A DNA stretch of 42,395 nt, taken from assembly GCA_946623875.1 (NCBI GenBank), contig CAMORO010000014.1:1-42395 (forward strand), read 5' to 3'. The position numbers were made by a program, and so were the translations under genes. The DNA is from an uncultured Lachnospiraceae bacterium. GTDB lineage: Bacteria; Bacillota; Clostridia; Lachnospirales; Lachnospiraceae. Of the stretch, positions 2,510 through 34,281 are shown piece after piece; positions within the stretch are counted from its first letter, which is position 1; each line of letters begins with the position of its first letter. The notes under the pieces are model-generated. The model worked only from the letters and a program-made list of their open reading frames with translations. It made no database searches and was not told where the DNA came from.

Positions 2510-2566
2510 GAAATTGTATTACAACAGGCATTGACAGTACATGATTATTTGGGGGAACAGCACCAT

Positions 2567-3649
2567 ATGAAGCGTATAAGAACTTCCGATCTTGTACCCG
2601 GAATGACAACAGCCGAGGACGTTTATTCGTACAACAATCAGATGATCGTCCCCAACAATACAGTTCTCACCGATAAGATGATCACACGTCTTGAATTCTA
2701 TTCAGTTCTTGCAGTAAGGATCAAGGACGAGGTCATTGCACCTACCGAAGAGGTTTCTCAGTTCGATATGCCATCGTATTCGGAAAGGATCAAGGCCAGC
2801 AAGGAATTTAAAGAATTTGAGAAAACCTTCATTACTACCACAGAAAATTTCAAACGTAACCTAAGATCAATAGTAGATGACAGGGCTCCTATAGATACAG
2901 AGGAATTGTTCGACCATATCTCCAATCTTATGGCAGCGCAATCTTCTTCTATTTCCATCTTTGATATGCTTCATAACATGCGTCAGTATGATGACATGAC
3001 CTATGCGCATTCGATAAATGTCGGTCTTATCTGCAACGTCTTCGGCAAATGGTTAAAGCTTCCGCCTTCCGAGGTTGAAAAGCTTACATTATGCGGTCTG
3101 ATGCATGATATCGGCAAGCTTGTTGTTCCGGATAAGATAATACGTAAGCCTGACAAGCTTACACCTAACGAATACAATATAATCAAGACTCATACCCTTC
3201 AGGGTTACAAGATACTCAAGGAATATGAGAATATAAGCGATGATGTTAAGGAAGCCGCCCTTATGCATCATGAGAGATGTGACGGAACGGGTTATCCTCT
3301 CGGACTTACGGGCGATAAGATAAACAAATATGCTAAAATTGTCGCTATAGCCGATGTCTATGATGCCATGACAGCAGCCCGTGTCTACCGCGGTCCTCTG
3401 TGTCCTTTTAAGGTTATAGGGATCTTTGAGTCCGAGGGACTGAACAAATATGACAGTAACTTCATCCTGGTATTCCTTGAACACATCGCAAGTACGTATA
3501 TCAAAAACCGCGTACGCTTAAACAACGGTATGGAAGGTGAAGTAGTATTCATGAATAAGACAGCACTGTCAAGACCGATGATCCAGTGCAGGAACCGCTT
3601 TATAGATCTGTCAAAAGAAACTGATATCTATATCGAAACCTTCGTATAA
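2567..3649 (+). CDS. HD-GYP domain protein, probable c-di-GMP phosphodiesterase
   Basis: Predicted to hydrolyse cyclic di-GMP. The N-terminal 130 residues resemble the domain that often precedes HD-GYP (opening MKRIRTSDLVPGMTTAEDVY). The HD-GYP domain covers about 140-315, with HD at 180-181 (LMHDIGK), the diagnostic HHERCDGTGYP at 234-244, and IADVYDAMTA near 262. A short C-terminal beta-rich tail (NGMEGEVVFMN) follows. The metal and GYP residues look intact, so activity is plausible. I chose the ATG at 2567, preceded by GGGGGAA; the frame also opens at a TTG at 2531 with no good ribosome site. It has its own promoter and ends at a strong bidirectional terminator. No signal peptide or membrane segment is visible. 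The neighbours greA and murA are unrelated, so the controlled process is unknown. Confidence 0.93.
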   Translation: MKRIRTSDLVPGMTTAEDVYSYNNQMIVPNNTVLTDKMITRLEFYSVLAVRIKDEVIAPTEEVSQFDMPSYSERIKASKEFKEFEKTFITTTENFKRNLRSIVDDRAPIDTEELFDHISNLMAAQSSSISIFDMLHNMRQYDDMTYAHSINVGLICNVFGKWLKLPPSEVEKLTLCGLMHDIGKLVVPDKIIRKPDKLTPNEYNIIKTHTLQGYKILKEYENISDDVKEAALMHHERCDGTGYPLGLTGDKINKYAKIVAIADVYDAMTAARVYRGPLCPFKVIGIFESEGLNKYDSNFILVFLEHIASTYIKNRVRLNNGMEGEVVFMNKTALSRPMIQCRNRFIDLSKETDIYIETFV

Positions 3650-28458: not shown

Positions 28459-28524
28459 ATGGATTTTGACATATTTGCAGCAAAACGTGTAAAAACAGGA
28501 AAATACAATGATCAGAGAAGTTGA
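28459..28524 (+). CDS. Possible upstream small ORF, 21 aa
   Basis: ATG preceded by AAAGGA at 5 nt, coding for MDFDIFAAKRVKTGKYNDQ then RS and TGA. It overlaps the start of the next gene (ATG at 28508) in another frame by 17 bp. The ribosome site is as good as that of the main gene, so it may be translated as a leader peptide that couples or tunes translation of the downstream protein. The length is too short for composition tests. Confidence 0.3.
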   Translation: MDFDIFAAKRVKTGKYNDQRS

Positions 28525-29209
28525 TATAAATGAAATATCGGACGGAAGACGCTACCGTTCATCGGATATGGTCAAAATAGGATGTGCCGACTGCGCCGGC
28601 TGTTCCGAATGCTGCTCTCAGGTGGACGATACGATAATCCTCGATCCGTATGACATAAAAGAACTGTGCCGGGGTCTTGATACCACTTTCGATGACCTGC
28701 TGTCGGGAGCTTATTTATTAAAAAACAAATCCTTTGCAGATAGTTCTGAATTTACACGGTCAGGAGAAACGGAAATGACCCTGATCCCCGCGATCGAACT
28801 CGGTCATGCCGACGGGCTTCTTCTTCCGCATCTTAATATAAGCAAAGAAACAGGCGGCTGTGTCTTCCTAAGCAGGGACGGCCGCTGTACCATACATGAC
28901 TTCCGTCCGGGATTCTGCCGTCTTTATCCTCTCGGACGTATTTACGAAAACGGCTCATTCTCTTATTTTATCCAGATCCATGAATGTCCCTACCCCAATA
29001 AGACCAAGGTTAAGATCAGGAAATGGCTCGGCATACGAGATCTTCCCTCTTATGAAGCCTTTGTGCTTAAATGGCATGACATTCTGGAAAATGCGCGAAA
29101 AGAGCTGTCAGATATCCATGATATTTCCGAACAATCCCGGTATATCGTGTCTTTTCTCAGGAAGTATTATCAAAACGAGTCAGGAGAAAAATCCCCTGAC
29201 CCGGTTTAA
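28508..29209 (+). CDS. YkgJ-family cysteine-cluster (zinc/iron-chelating) protein
   Basis: Cytoplasmic 233-residue protein. The N-terminal GCADCAGCSECCSQVDDTII and later GGCVFLSRDGRCTIHDFRPG followed by FCRLYPLG form the cysteine pattern of the YkgJ/CxxCxxCC family, thought to bind zinc or iron. The family has no settled enzymatic role; a part in metalloprotein handling or protein modification has been proposed. AGGAAAA lies about 7 nt before the ATG. The C-terminal 10 codons overlap the 3' end of the patatin-like gene on the other strand, and a hairpin lies in the overlap. Confidence 0.85.
   Translation: MIREVDINEISDGRRYRSSDMVKIGCADCAGCSECCSQVDDTIILDPYDIKELCRGLDTTFDDLLSGAYLLKNKSFADSSEFTRSGETEMTLIPAIELGHADGLLLPHLNISKETGGCVFLSRDGRCTIHDFRPGFCRLYPLGRIYENGSFSYFIQIHECPYPNKTKVKIRKWLGIRDLPSYEAFVLKWHDILENARKELSDIHDISEQSRYIVSFLRKYYQNESGEKSPDPV
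29179..29200. terminator. Hairpin in the overlap of two convergent genes
   Basis: Arms GTCAGGAGA and TCCCCTGAC (one mismatch) with a 4-nt loop. It lies wholly within the coding sequence of the cysteine-cluster gene and contains the stop codon of the patatin-like gene (29180-29182). The minus-strand flank (CTCGTTTTGATAATAC) is T-rich. It is nearly identical to the hairpin at 17250-17271. Confidence 0.55.
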
Positions 29210-30031
29210 GCTGTTCAATCCTTCCCGCCTTCCCATATCATAAACTCTCTGAATCTCGTTCTTATCGTTGGAAACACTTATCCTCAGGGCTTCCGAGGGT
29301 CTTATAACAAGGAGTTCTCCTTTTATTTCCTTATCTAAAATATAGGAATAAGTCTCATTATATCTCTCATGCCGGTTCAGCATTGCCTCGGTAAGCTTGG
29401 GGTATTTCCTGTACAAAAGCTTCGCGGCTGCTCCGTATTTGATCTTCTTCTTGATATAGTTGACCGGCTGTGTAAGTATGACAACATTGCGGTCATATCC
29501 AAGCTCCTCAAAAAACCTTATCGGAACGGAATCTCCCACTCCGCCGTCGAGCAGCTTCACTCCGTTTATTTCAACGATCTGTTCAAGCATCGGCATGGCG
29601 CATGACGCCCGTACCCATTCCAAAAAGGTATTAAAGTCATCATTTTTCTCATCATGTCTGTGATGAACCGCCCTGCCTGTCTCTATGTTCGTACAGGTAA
29701 TGTAGAACTCCATCGGGTTTGCATTAAATGTTTTAAAATCAAACTTATCCAGTCTTTCCGGGATCTCATGATAGCAAAAATCCTCCGAATACAGATTTCC
29801 GTTCCTAAAAAGACCCTTCAGGCTTATATATCTTTTATCATCACAATAATCTTTATTATATCTTAAGGCTCTGCCAATCTGCTTTGATTTGTAATTACAT
29901 CCGAAGGCTGCTCCGGCACTTGTTCCGACACCCCCGTCGAATTCTATCCCGTTCTCCATCAACACATCGGTGACGCCCGCTGTGAACATACCCCTCATCG
30001 CGCCACCTTCCATAATAAGGCCTTTTTTCAT
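29180..30031 (-). CDS. Patatin-like phospholipase
   Basis: Predicted acyl hydrolase with a Ser-Asp dyad: oxyanion loop MEGGAMRGMFTAG, nucleophile elbow GVGTSAG (S38) and LLDGGVGDSVP (D162). All are intact. The 283-residue length fits the YjjU/RssA-like bacterial patatins. I chose the ATG at 30031, where GGGAGGAAG precedes it by a few nt; the frame extends to 30100 without support. There is no signal peptide, so it acts in the cytoplasm or at the inner membrane face. A promoter is at 30099-30127, with a short ACCGG/CCGGT hairpin (30060-30078) in the leader. It is divergent from the hydrogenase-like fusion gene. The substrate is unknown. Confidence 0.92.
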   Translation of the reverse strand: MKKGLIMEGGAMRGMFTAGVTDVLMENGIEFDGGVGTSAGAAFGCNYKSKQIGRALRYNKDYCDDKRYISLKGLFRNGNLYSEDFCYHEIPERLDKFDFKTFNANPMEFYITCTNIETGRAVHHRHDEKNDDFNTFLEWVRASCAMPMLEQIVEINGVKLLDGGVGDSVPIRFFEELGYDRNVVILTQPVNYIKKKIKYGAAAKLLYRKYPKLTEAMLNRHERYNETYSYILDKEIKGELLVIRPSEALRISVSNDKNEIQRVYDMGRREGLNSLNRVRGFFS

Positions 30032-30098
30032 GACTTCCTCCCGATAATCCTTATTGAGCACCGGTCTATCCGGCCGGTAACGGACAGAACATGAAGAC

Positions 30099-30127
30099 AT
30101 TCTATCATGTGATGATCTTCAATACAA
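30099..30127 (-). promoter_or_regulatory. Promoter for the patatin-like gene
   Basis: On the minus strand: TTGTAT (30122-30127), 17-bp spacer, TAGAAT (30099-30104). The leader is about 60 nt. Confidence 0.55.
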
Positions 30128-30313: not shown

Positions 30314-32911
30314 ATGACGAATAATAAACTTGTATATACAAATGAAAACTGTGTAGGCTGTAACAAGTGCATAAATGCATGCAGTTGTCTTGGTGCCTGT
30401 GTCCCCGTGGAAGGATCGGAGCACGGCAAATTCCATATAGATGTCGACAGCGAACGTTGTGTGGCATGCGGAGCATGTTTTCAGGCATGTGAGCATAATG
30501 CACGGGAATTCAGGGATGATACCGAACGTTTCCTTAACGATCTTAAGAACGGGGAACAGATCTCGCTTCTTGTCGCACCTTCATTTCCCGCCAATTATCC
30601 CGATGAATATGAAGCAGTACTCGGCGAACTGCATTCGATGGGCGTAAACCGCTTTATAAATATTGCTTTCGGAGCCGATATCGGAACCTGGGCATATATC
30701 AGATACATGCAGGAGAATGATTTCGAAGGCGGAATATCCCAACCCTGTCCGGCAGTTGTAAGCTATATCGAGAAATATGAACCGCAGCTTATAAACAGGC
30801 TGTTTCCCATACAGAGTCCCCTCATGTGTGCAGTCATATATGCACGTAAACAGCTTAAGATCACTGATAAATTTGCATTCTTAAGTCCATGTATTGCCAA
30901 AAAAATAGAGATAGAGGATCCAAACACTCACGGTCTTGTATCATACAATGTTACCTATGCTCATCTTATGAAGCTCATGCGCGAAACAAGACTCAACAAA
31001 AAACAGTCCTTTGATAAGCTCGAATACGGTCTTGGCGGAATATGGCCAATGCCGGGCGGACTTAAGGAAAACATACAATGGCTTCTGGGAGAGGATGTTT
31101 TCATCAGACAGATCGAAGGCGACAAGCGGCTGTACCGTTATCTTCGAAGAAATGCAGACAAGATTTCGCAGGGAAGCATGGGGTTTTCGATGATCGATGC
31201 TCTTAACTGTGAAAACGGTTGTCTGTGCGGCACTGCCACGGAAACAGACATGATCCATAGTGAAGATCCTCTTATATGGCTGCTTAATGCAAGATCGTCG
31301 ATCAAGAATGAGCCAATAGACAAGGCATGGAACCGGGATCTTACTCCGTCAAAGAGGCTTGAGGCACTTAATGAGCGCTACAGGGACTTCTTTCTTTCAG
31401 ACTACATCAGGAAATATGAAGACAAATCCGCTTCCGTACCGGTTAAATATCCTACCGATGAGGAACTTGAAAAGATATTTACGGAAATGCACAAGGACAG
31501 CTTCGAAAAGCGCAACATCAACTGTACCGCCTGCGGAAATGATACCTGCCGTGATATGGCGGTTGCGATATTTAACGGTTTCAACAACAAGAACAACTGT
31601 ATTCATTACAATAAGGATATGGTCGATAAGGAACAGGAAAAGCTGCGATATCTCGCCGACCATGACCAGACACTGGGAATACTTAACAGAAGGGCAATAA
31701 GAGAATGTCTTGAAAGTAAATTCACATACCAGGATACTTTTGCCGTACTGATATCGGATCTTAACAACTTTAAAGGAATTAATGCTACATATGGTAATAA
31801 CGGCGGAGATATCATCCTTAAAAATATTGCAACAGCCGTTAATACATTGTGCTCCCAAAATGGCTGGGTATGCGGAAGGACCGGTGGCGATGAATTTATG
31901 ATCATCATCCCGGGAAAGAACATTTCCCCAGACGGAGGAGAAGTTACCGACCTCTTAACCGCTCTTACAACACCGACACCGATCGGCAGTGAGTGGGTTG
32001 GTACAACAGTAAGTATCGGTATTTCCAACTCTGACGGAGCCACCCCTGTTAAAGAGCATATCTCCGCAGCTGAAAACGCAATGTATATTGCCAAGAGAAA
32101 AGGTAAAAACAGTATTATCGAATTCTCTGCCGAACAGAAAGCCAAATCCAGGGAAGAGAAATCCATAAAAGACAAGGTATGGTATGCCCTTGAAAACGAC
32201 GGTTTCTTCATGGTATACCAGCCACAGGTAGATGCAAAGACCCGTATAGTTAACGGATATGAAGCTCTTGTGCGTATGAAGATCCCCGGGATTTACCCCG
32301 GACAATTCATTCCGATCGCCGAAAAAAACGGATGGATCTGGCGTATCGGAAGGATAACGACCGAACTTGTCGTAAAACAACTGTCCGATTGGATAAAAGA
32401 AGGTCATACGCCCCATCCTGTTTCCATCAATTTCTCAAGCAACCAGTTAAATGATGAAGGATACGTTGATTTTCTTGAAGATCTTCTTACAAAATATAAT
32501 ATTCCTCCCAAATTGGTTGAAATAGAAATAACAGAGGGACTGTTCCTTGAGAAATCAACACAGGCTCAGGAGTTGTTTAACCGTTTCAAGAATCTTGGAA
32601 TCCGTATTCTTATGGATGATTTCGGAACAGGTTATTCTTCTCTGGGTTATCTGACATATATCCCGGTTGATGTGATAAAGCTGGACAAATCTTTGGTTGA
32701 TACCTATCTGGTTGAAGGTAAGGACAGCTTCATTCATAATGTTATCAGGCTTATGCACGACCTTGATAAGGAAATGCTCATAGAGGGTGTTGAAGAGAAA
32801 TGGCAGTATGAGCGACTGTGCGAATTCGGTGCGGACACTATTCAGGGTTATTATTTCAGCAAACCGATATCTCCCGATGAAGCTATTAACTTTACGGTAA
32901 AGGAAGACTGA
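30314..32911 (+). CDS. Ferredoxin-[FeFe]-hydrogenase-like-GGDEF-EAL fusion, putative redox/H2 c-di-GMP sensor
   Basis: Cytoplasmic 865-residue fusion, domains in order. (1) Two-cluster ferredoxin, cysteines 13/16/19/23 and 49/52/55/59. (2) [FeFe]-hydrogenase large-subunit-like domain, about 85-330, with H-cluster cysteines C145 (SQPCPAVV), C193 (LSPCIAKKIE), C299 and C303 (NCENGCLCG). (3) A CxxCx4Cx16C Fe-S motif, C404/C407/C412/C429. (4) GGDEF, about 445-605, with intact GGDEF at 524-528 and no clear RxxD inhibitory site. (5) EAL, about 615-862, with E650-A-L, N706, the DDFGTGYSS loop at 768, K789, E824 and Q844. The usual proton-relay cysteine before C145 is proline, as expected of a sensor rather than a turnover enzyme. 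Both c-di-GMP sites look competent. No strong ribosome site precedes the ATG, but the ferredoxin begins at once. No hydrogenase maturation gene is in the window. Confidence 0.92.
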   Translation: MTNNKLVYTNENCVGCNKCINACSCLGACVPVEGSEHGKFHIDVDSERCVACGACFQACEHNAREFRDDTERFLNDLKNGEQISLLVAPSFPANYPDEYEAVLGELHSMGVNRFINIAFGADIGTWAYIRYMQENDFEGGISQPCPAVVSYIEKYEPQLINRLFPIQSPLMCAVIYARKQLKITDKFAFLSPCIAKKIEIEDPNTHGLVSYNVTYAHLMKLMRETRLNKKQSFDKLEYGLGGIWPMPGGLKENIQWLLGEDVFIRQIEGDKRLYRYLRRNADKISQGSMGFSMIDALNCENGCLCGTATETDMIHSEDPLIWLLNARSSIKNEPIDKAWNRDLTPSKRLEALNERYRDFFLSDYIRKYEDKSASVPVKYPTDEELEKIFTEMHKDSFEKRNINCTACGNDTCRDMAVAIFNGFNNKNNCIHYNKDMVDKEQEKLRYLADHDQTLGILNRRAIRECLESKFTYQDTFAVLISDLNNFKGINATYGNNGGDIILKNIATAVNTLCSQNGWVCGRTGGDEFMIIIPGKNISPDGGEVTDLLTALTTPTPIGSEWVGTTVSIGISNSDGATPVKEHISAAENAMYIAKRKGKNSIIEFSAEQKAKSREEKSIKDKVWYALENDGFFMVYQPQVDAKTRIVNGYEALVRMKIPGIYPGQFIPIAEKNGWIWRIGRITTELVVKQLSDWIKEGHTPHPVSINFSSNQLNDEGYVDFLEDLLTKYNIPPKLVEIEITEGLFLEKSTQAQELFNRFKNLGIRILMDDFGTGYSSLGYLTYIPVDVIKLDKSLVDTYLVEGKDSFIHNVIRLMHDLDKEMLIEGVEEKWQYERLCEFGADTIQGYYFSKPISPDEAINFTVKED

Positions 32912-32922
32912 GCACAGATATC

Positions 32923-34281
32923 CTATACCAAACCCTCAATCAAAACGATAAGGATGAGCACCGGAAGCGCAAACTGTATGCAGCGCTCCAATCCGGTGCT
33001 TATCTTAATGCCTTCTCCCGAATTTACTTCTTTAATATAATTGTCCATGCCCCAACCTGACTCAGATACACAGAACAGGGTAATTATCAGGGATCCGACC
33101 GGAAGAAGAATACTGCTCACAATGAAATCCTCAAAATCCAGCACATTCTTATCTCCCATTATCCGCAGATCACCCAGAACATTGTAACCCAGTACACAGG
33201 GCATGCTCATAACAAGTATTATTATCATATTAATGAACACAGATTTCCTGCGGCTCATTCCAAGATCATCCATCATAAACGCAACCAGATTCTCAAATAC
33301 CGCCGTTACAGTTGAGAAACTGGCAAAGGTCATTAAGATAAAAAACAGAGTTCCCCATACACGTCCACCCGGCATGTTCATGAACACTGTGGGCAGTGTG
33401 ATAAAGATCAGCGACGGTCCCTGATCCGCCTTTATATTATAACTAAAGCATGCCGGAAAAATAATCATCCCTGCCATAACAGCCACAAGAGTATCCAAAA
33501 TACACACCTTAACAGCCTCACCTGTGAGAGTTTTTTCTTCAGACATATAACTTCCGAATACTTCAATACAGCCAATACCTATGCTCAGTGTAAAAAATGC
33601 CTGTTTCATTGATGCAAAGATGACTCTTTCCATACCGATCCCGGAAGCTCTCTCAAAATCCGGAAACAGATAAAACTTCATGGCCTCAGCTGCTCCCTCA
33701 AGTGTCAGACTTTTTATCACCAGCACTATGATAATCAGGAAAAGGCCGACCATCATAAACTTATTGATCCGTTCCAGTCCATTGTTTAATCCGAAGTTTA
33801 GCACGGCAAAACCCGAGATTACAATGACAGCCATAAATATCGTCATTTCTGTGGGATTGGCAAGCATATCCCTAAAAACCTCTCCCACCGCATCCGTTTC
33901 CAGCCTGTCAAAGGTTCCTGTCATAAACTTGCAGAAATAATCAAGGATCCATCCGGATACTGTAGTATAGTACATCATCAGCAGATAACTTCCCATAATG
34001 GCAAACCAGCCGTGGATATGCCACTTGCTTCCCGGCTTTTCCAGTTTCTTATATCCTTTCATGAGACTCTGCCTGCTCGCACGGCCTATTGCATACTCCA
34101 TTGTCATAACCGGAATTCCCATAATAACAAGAAAGAGCAGATAAAACAGTACAAAGACCCCTCCTCCGTTTTCCCCTGCTATATATGGGAACTTCCATAT
34201 ATTCCCTATTCCTATGGCGCATCCTGCACTTACCATTATAAAGCCGATCCTGCTCGCAAATGATCCTCTGGTTTTTTTCAT
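32923..34281 (-). CDS. Sodium-dependent transporter, neurotransmitter:sodium symporter (NSS) family
   Basis: Polytopic membrane protein of 452 residues with about 11-12 hydrophobic helices. The first helix region SAGCAIGIGNIWKFPYIAGE carries the unwound sodium/substrate site typical of LeuT-like NSS proteins, and NGGGVFVLFYLLFLVIMGIP follows. It probably imports an amino acid with sodium; the substrate is unknown. Its ATG overlaps the stop of the YgiQ-like gene (ATGA), so translation is coupled. The 3' end is 11 bp from the convergent fusion gene with no terminator in the gap; a strong hairpin (32957-33000) lies inside its last codons. Confidence 0.95.
   Translation of the reverse strand: MKKTRGSFASRIGFIMVSAGCAIGIGNIWKFPYIAGENGGGVFVLFYLLFLVIMGIPVMTMEYAIGRASRQSLMKGYKKLEKPGSKWHIHGWFAIMGSYLLMMYYTTVSGWILDYFCKFMTGTFDRLETDAVGEVFRDMLANPTEMTIFMAVIVISGFAVLNFGLNNGLERINKFMMVGLFLIIIVLVIKSLTLEGAAEAMKFYLFPDFERASGIGMERVIFASMKQAFFTLSIGIGCIEVFGSYMSEEKTLTGEAVKVCILDTLVAVMAGMIIFPACFSYNIKADQGPSLIFITLPTVFMNMPGGRVWGTLFFILMTFASFSTVTAVFENLVAFMMDDLGMSRRKSVFINMIIILVMSMPCVLGYNVLGDLRIMGDKNVLDFEDFIVSSILLPVGSLIITLFCVSESGWGMDNYIKEVNSGEGIKISTGLERCIQFALPVLILIVLIEGLV
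32957..33000. terminator. Nested hairpin within the 3' end of the NSS gene
   Basis: Outer arms AGCACCGG (32957-32964) and CCGGTGCT (32993-33000), inner arms AGCGC (32966-32970) and GCGCT (32983-32987). It is the first strong hairpin downstream of the convergent hydrogenase-like gene (46 bp after its stop), so it may terminate that transcript. No clean T run follows. Confidence 0.4.

Follow-up and report, generated by a model that had tools for sequence, protein, structure and literature searches.

A putative sensory [FeFe]-hydrogenase module fused to GGDEF and EAL domains in an uncultured Lachnospiraceae bacterium and other gut bacteria

The closest described relatives of the protein reported here are the sensory [FeFe]-hydrogenases of groups C and D, whose H2 sensing is called putative in the available excerpts of two papers, which also pose as a question how the signal leaves TamHydS, the group D (M2e) protein of Thermoanaerobacter mathranii (PMC8163306, PMC13104023). 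Sensory [FeFe]-hydrogenases are described, in the excerpt of a further paper, as abundant in rumen genomes, metagenomes and metatranscriptomes (PMC6776011). The HydDB table, as excerpted, gives kinase, chemotaxis and phosphatase links for [FeFe] group C, with C1 and C2 being kinase- and chemotaxis-linked, and a diguanylate-cyclase link only for group 2c, which ties a hydrogenase to cyclic diguanylate (c-di-GMP) but is a [NiFe] enzyme (PMC5037454). On the output side, DosP, the O2-sensing PAS(heme)-GGDEF-EAL phosphodiesterase of E. coli (PDB 9bgv, 9cmf, 9clo and others), provides a solved GGDEF-EAL protein with a gas input. Here we describe a gene at positions 30314-32911 of the forward strand of contig CAMORO010000014.1, a 42,395-nucleotide stretch from an uncultured Lachnospiraceae bacterium (the whole stretch is referred to as the window), whose 865-residue product carries a hydrogenase-like N-terminal half followed by GGDEF and EAL domains. 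We consider the chances evenly balanced that this protein is a sensory [FeFe]-hydrogenase module controlling c-di-GMP hydrolysis through its GGDEF-EAL pair.

The gene runs without interruption from an ATG at 30314 to a stop codon ending at 32911, and all of its domains scored above the Pfam gathering cut-offs. Two [4Fe-4S] ferredoxin motifs (residues 12-64, window 30347-30505; C13, C16, C19, C23, C49, C52, C55 and C59) were recovered as Fer4_7 at residues 12-63 (27.2 bits, cut-off 27) and Fer4 at residues 43-64. They are followed by the H-cluster domain, Fe_hyd_lg_C (residues 85-306, 30566-31231; 76.6 bits, cut-off 22.1), which has a fold match to CpI and CbA5H, the ligands C145, C193, C299 and C303, and the pocket residues P144, S191, K196 and L297. 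An FeS domain, PF04060 (residues 402-430, 31517-31603; 26.0 bits, cut-off 23), contains a Cx2Cx4Cx16C cluster motif formed by C404, C407, C412 and C429, and a predicted signalling helix of 20 residues (430-449, 31601-31660; AlphaFold2 model, mean predicted local distance difference test score 89.2) leads from it to the GGDEF domain (residues 448-599, 31655-32110; 88.3 bits), after which comes the EAL domain (residues about 624-851, 32183-32866; Pfam 625-851, 201.6 bits). A Pfam scan at E 0.01 found no PAS domain in the protein, and the GGDEF domain comes directly after the 20-residue helix; the likeness to DosP is therefore limited to the output half (approximately 26% identity over GGDEF-EAL), since the input of DosP is a heme PAS domain and not a hydrogenase module. 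The Fe_hyd_lg_C match and the four ligand cysteines place the N-terminal module, by sequence, in the [FeFe]-hydrogenase H-domain superfamily. A first-pass annotation, made from the letters alone, had proposed a single polypeptide with a ferredoxin, an H-cluster domain with these four ligands, an extra CxxCx4Cx16C cluster, and GGDEF and EAL domains with apparently intact active sites, and the domain search together with the one 865-residue frame agrees with it in each of these respects.

The window protein is one of at least 52 distinct full-length proteins with this build, which fall into the subgroup of the window protein (subgroup A, n = 24), a subgroup B (n = 17) and a far subgroup (n = 11). 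All four H-cluster cysteines and all four FeS-domain cysteines are present in 52/52, as are the eight ferredoxin cysteines, save for C19 (51/52, the exception being L078); the ferredoxin counts come from an untrimmed alignment, the first alignment having trimmed some N-termini and left gaps at the Fer4 cysteines. Loss of the Fe-S cysteines among homologues, which would have undermined the original proposal, is thus not what was observed. C172 (in the motif SPLMC, window 30827-30829), adjacent to the H-cluster in sequence, is also invariant, in the 52 proteins and across the full 80 rows of alignment A2; it is not a known H-cluster ligand.

The two output domains are not equally conserved. In the window protein, the GGDEF signature and D482, N490 and D499 are all intact, no RxxD inhibitory site was seen upstream of the signature (alignment, by eye), and the EAL domain is intact at E650, N706, E738, D768, D769, K789, E824 and Q844; these are the catalytic, metal-binding or GTP-binding positions of the two domains, and the residue letters and counts are from the alignment. 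Each of the eight EAL residues is present in 52/52. The exact GGDEF motif, on the other hand, is found in only 7/52, the window copy included, and the catalytic Glu in 11/52, all of them in the subgroup of the window protein (11/24, against 0/17 and 0/11), which rules out the idea that both activities are equally conserved. These findings indicate that the common output of the family is, as predicted from the alignment, an EAL c-di-GMP phosphodiesterase, with cyclase activity as an option. Hence, the earlier suggestion of one switchable protein for both synthesis and breakdown holds for the motifs of the window copy and would extend at most to this copy and its close kin; it fails for the family as a whole. 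A pure phosphodiesterase under H-cluster control, in which the GGDEF domain would bind GTP and tune the EAL domain, overlaps with the explanation favoured here as a sub-case of it, and we rate it slightly better than an even bet. The conservation counts speak for it, and so does the ratio of nonsynonymous to synonymous substitution rates (dN/dS) relative to a 94% identical ortholog, which is lowest in EAL (0.030); it sits less well with GGDEF, D482, N490 and D499 being intact in the window copy as well as in the 94% and 76% identical orthologs, and with a dN/dS of 0.107 across the GGDEF domain.

The values for the remaining segments in the same comparison were 0.083 for the ferredoxin and H-cluster domains and 0.109 for the middle region with the FeS domain, so that each segment of the gene is under purifying selection (dN/dS 0.03-0.11). 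This bears on whether an assembly chimera or a frameshift has fused two genes, a failure that the first-pass annotation had itself named. The source genome is only a draft of 155 contigs, 83% complete, and we found nothing else that would favour such an artefact. The 94% ortholog could be aligned over 865 residues in a single frame, and two 76% orthologs have equal length and frame; neighbours are shared with the former (SNF/rSAM/OGG) and with both of the latter (ileS, pncB, YkgJ, rSAM and OGG). Because 51 other full-length proteins are also encoded in a single frame, neighbours are kept in three orthologs and purifying selection acts throughout, the artefact is in practice refuted, and we assign it a negligible probability.

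Those 51 further proteins constitute the collection of homologues with the same domain order that the first-pass annotation had asked for. When 145 related genomes, 37 of the same genus and 108 others, were searched with the protein (E 1e-60, at most six candidates scored per genome), whole-length matches comprised 24 genes in 21/37 genomes of the genus and none in the 108 others at that threshold. A wider scan of named genomes, from which the best 80 of 535 relatives were kept, contained 36 full-length single-frame sensor and EAL proteins among those 80; pooled with the genus copies, these give the 52 distinct proteins. They derive from genomes or metagenome-assembled genomes (MAGs) of Lachnospiraceae, Ruminococcus (L088, L089, L093), Oscillospiraceae (L101, L103, L108), Christensenellaceae (L104), Acidaminococcaceae (L091), Treponema (L076, L078) and unplaced Clostridia, the names of Treponema, Acidaminococcaceae and the other carriers being those on the MAG records. 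Record titles named a ruminant stomach compartment or deer or horse faeces for 16/36 and no animal for 20/36 (one of which, L082, reads 'SlDig'). In the sensor tree described below, two Treponema MAGs that differ in origin group as a pair (97*), which argues against stray binning, and a third Treponema copy, L090, is truncated by a contig end. Genus mates such as G009 encode proteins identical to those in named rumen Lachnospiraceae MAGs, so that the window derives from a bacterium of this kind. Taken together, these records suggest that the fusion of the sensor to GGDEF-EAL is common in herbivore-gut bacteria, with the same design recurring. Contig-end fragments of two more sensor proteins (L061 and L062, from genome G024) were kept out of the set.

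The sensor is not confined to GGDEF-EAL proteins. In the same genome it is joined to a methyl-accepting chemotaxis protein (MCP; contig C55, L067:4355-6280) and to a HisKA-HATPase-REC-Hpt hybrid kinase (contig C23, L066:842-3973), fusions that resemble the chemotaxis- and kinase-linked HydDB classes. Three further proteins carry the sensor with GGDEF alone and a receiver-like tail (L131:3792-5927 and L123:3306-5396 by Pfam, L147:1981-4071 by eye only), and are candidates for a purely cyclase version; in L123 and L147, RxxD precedes an intact GGDEF. In L188:112-2796 (G406), an H-cluster sensor is joined to PAS-sigma-54 AAA+-helix-turn-helix, a possible one-component H2-responsive transcription activator, and the 1927-residue L053:3448-9228 (G018) leads from dCache, kinase and receivers through an H-cluster sensor to a second kinase and Hpt. 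The domain scan that gave the L188 architecture covered 10/30 loci. Since the same sensor occurs on an MCP, a histidine kinase-REC-Hpt protein, GGDEF alone and a sigma-54 AAA+ protein, it can be regarded as an input module.

The outputs appear to have been swapped repeatedly between sensor modules. Between subgroups A and B, the sensor is 63% identical while GGDEF and EAL are only 18% and 35% identical, as expected from repeated domain swapping. Furthermore, the GGDEF-EAL half of subgroup A is approximately 60% identical, over 427-429 residues, to that of two proteins of the same genus (L068 and L069) with an unrelated N-terminus that has no Fe-S motifs and no Pfam match and looks membrane-anchored by eye. 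When mapped onto a tree built from 92 sensors, the GGDEF-EAL label requires three changes, and the starred branches force three; the 92 rows were chosen (8/11 far-group rows and a sample of MCP rows), the search was a quick one without bootstrap, and long branches were flagged, that of the far group among the longest (inner branch 5.12). We lean slightly away from, but take seriously, the broader proposal of a family of one-piece transducers from H2 (or H-cluster redox state) to c-di-GMP, common in herbivore-gut bacteria, whose module became joined to GGDEF-EAL on no fewer than three separate occasions and was fused, besides, to MCP, histidine kinase, stand-alone cyclase and sigma-54 outputs, and of which this copy could both make and break c-di-GMP.

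We compared the H-cluster pocket with those of described enzymes by alignment to the HydA proteins of the same genome, on which the mapping to CpI and TamHydS positions rests. On this alignment, C299, E279, E282 and S319 of CpI correspond to P144, Y128, Y131 and F164, so that the group A proton path is predicted to be gone from the window protein. M353 and M497 correspond to Ser and Leu, as printed for group D TamHydS in the excerpts of three papers (PMC8163306, PMC10407848, PMC11803613), and TamHydS likewise has no Cys at CpI position 299. In addition, the protein matches the group D (M2e) features, which in the excerpted list include Ser or Thr for M353 (PMC8163306), in its two N-terminal clusters, H-domain, C-terminal Cx2Cx4Cx16C, lack of PAS and S191 for M353 (52/52), all of which it shares with TamHydS as far as that protein is described there. 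Membership of group C (M2f) was not adopted, there being no PAS domain behind the FeS domain: TmHydS and RaHydS of that group share the ferredoxin, H-domain, Cx2Cx4Cx16C and absence of C299, but according to the excerpts of PMC6776011 and the TamHydS papers they possess a PAS domain, RaHydS is phosphatase-linked, and neither has a c-di-GMP output. An MCP link, the HydDB mark of C2, is absent from the window protein and present in its fused sister L067. TamHydS differs, in the text available, in having no fused output, where the modules described here are fused to MCP, kinase, cyclase or GGDEF-EAL. It may also differ in its proposed proton path, given in the excerpts as E252-E289-S249-D265: by the alignment to HydA, the counterpart of E252, a position held by Val in group A, is M246 or L250 and that of E289 is D295, and this path seems absent too. 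With the known proton-relay residues missing, the module would be suited to sensing and not to turnover; slow or no turnover would be expected, fitting a sensor.

The HydE, HydF and HydG maturation set invoked in the first-pass annotation was located in the same genome (565, 549 and 934 bits, together on contig C77), which also has one A6-type and one B1-type hydrogenase, and both HydF and HydG were detected in the genomes of the 94% and 76% orthologs as well. Several observations nevertheless weigh against a module that responds through an H-cluster. HydF and HydG were both undetected in 16/37 genomes of the genus (G002, G004, G006, G011, G012, G014, G015, G017-G022, G027, G029 and G033), and 14 of these 16 have sensors, compared to 18/21 of those with maturases (Fisher p = 1.0; the per-genome sensor list was transcribed by hand from the 145-genome search), so that the presence of the sensor is not tied to that of the maturases. 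Fusions in the genus co-occur with maturases in 4/8, 2/5 and 4/11 cases for A, B and C. The group A proton relay is missing and so, by alignment, is the glutamate E252 of TamHydS. The far subgroup (L042-L052), approximately 30% identical and of the same build, has lost both K196 and L297 (41/41 in the near relatives, 0/11 here) and has a degenerate GGDEF; its position 246 is acidic in 11/11 (Glu in ten, Asp in one) and position 297 in most, perhaps reflecting a changed cofactor. Finally, the C-terminal cluster of TamHydS is not reduced by H2, according to the excerpt of PMC13104023, which casts doubt on electrons simply being relayed to the output.

Three of these observations, namely the sensors in maturase-less genomes, the absence of the known proton relays and the lack of K196 in the far subgroup, are also those that a cubane-only Fe-S redox (or O2) sensor, with [4Fe-4S] in the H-domain and no di-iron site, would explain; the maturase-less genomes with sensors include G004, G011 and G029, which are 99% complete in 20-40 contigs, as well as four with subgroup A GGDEF-EAL fusions. 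We consider this the main rival, though an unlikely one, in view of the maturases in the genomes of the window protein and its 94% and 76% orthologs and of K196 in all 41 near relatives. Moreover, HydA-type proteins with the L1 and L2 cysteine motifs were present in 13/13 of the maturase-less genomes that were fetched, that of G029 having all four ligand positions and scoring 468.9 bits for group A. Since these genomes keep group A HydA-type proteins, the missing maturases may partly be an assembly gap, and the argument that maturase loss proves cubane-only sensing is weakened; either the maturases were missed by assembly, or the proteins concerned work without them.

A scheme for the favoured reading, a sensory [FeFe]-hydrogenase module that controls c-di-GMP hydrolysis, can draw directly on the architecture, the invariance of the cluster and EAL residues, purifying selection, the reuse of the sensor, the maturases and the candidate effectors; its cofactor content, ligand, direction of response and catalytic activities are what we infer. 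The protein would be a cytoplasmic sensor-effector whose N-terminal half forms a sensory [FeFe]-hydrogenase module with two ferredoxin clusters, an H-cluster matured by HydEFG and a C-terminal FeS cluster. When H2 is bound or oxidized at the H-cluster, this event, together with the redox state of the clusters, would change the conformation of the module, and this change would be relayed via the FeS domain and helix 430-449 to the GGDEF-EAL pair, setting the rate of c-di-GMP hydrolysis by EAL. The GGDEF domain would act as a GTP-binding regulator and, in the window copy, possibly as an active cyclase. H2 is the likely ligand, but only as a first guess, because such sensors persist in 14 of the 16 congeners in which neither HydF nor HydG was detected. 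Group A H-clusters bind CO, which would make CO a conceivable ligand in place of H2. This is most improbable, however, given that TamHydS, with the same Ser/Leu pocket, is called CO tolerant in the excerpts of two papers (PMC8163306, PMC11803613).

Candidate effectors for the resulting c-di-GMP level are encoded in the same genome, in which 51 GGDEF, 18 EAL and 6 PilZ matches exceeded the cut-offs. One is a YcgR-type PilZ protein (YcgR N-domain PilZNR, 67.1 bits) and another a cellulose-synthase-like PilZ protein (TIGR03030 365.8 bits, below the cut-off of 699.1; PilZ 23.9), which makes motility and surface polysaccharide plausible targets of c-di-GMP here. In the rumen, fermentation and methane are under the control of H2 partial pressure, and a coupling of H2 or redox state to c-di-GMP would connect rumen H2 to motility and to attachment or surface growth.

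In the open literature, we found no [FeFe]-hydrogenase/c-di-GMP protein; subscription papers are mostly uncovered by this search, which does not establish absence from print. Open papers naming both FeFe and GGDEF leave the two terms unconnected in the text available from each, and the text of Morra 2022 contains neither 'diguanylate' nor 'EAL'. The first-pass annotation had called the fusion rare or undescribed: undescribed it appears to be, as far as the open literature shows, but with at least 52 copies it is not rare in herbivore-gut bacteria. We therefore regard the protein as a well-supported variant of the sensory [FeFe]-hydrogenases, with a new output, a wide distribution and a putative function. 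A fused c-di-GMP enzyme provides the sensory module with a readable output. If the proposal is true, it would give the first known case of an [FeFe]-hydrogenase controlling a second messenger, and group-D-like modules would be shown to be sensors; a sensor occurring on five kinds of output would also be a naturally occurring component from which H2 or redox reporters could be engineered.

The gene stands alone, flanked by a divergent patatin-family gene (29180-30100, minus strand) and a convergent SNF-family transporter gene (32923-34281, minus strand). No obvious Shine-Dalgarno sequence precedes the ATG (by eye), promoter- and terminator-like sites were no more frequent than in shuffled sequence, and a scan of viral contigs gave no match. 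Upstream lies a gene for a YkgJ-like CxxCxxCC metal-binding protein (28508-29209, plus strand), which adjoins the sensor gene in both 76% orthologs. Elsewhere in the window, a gene at 2531-3646 (plus strand) encodes an HD_5/HD domain protein, possibly a signalling phosphodiesterase of the HD-GYP type.

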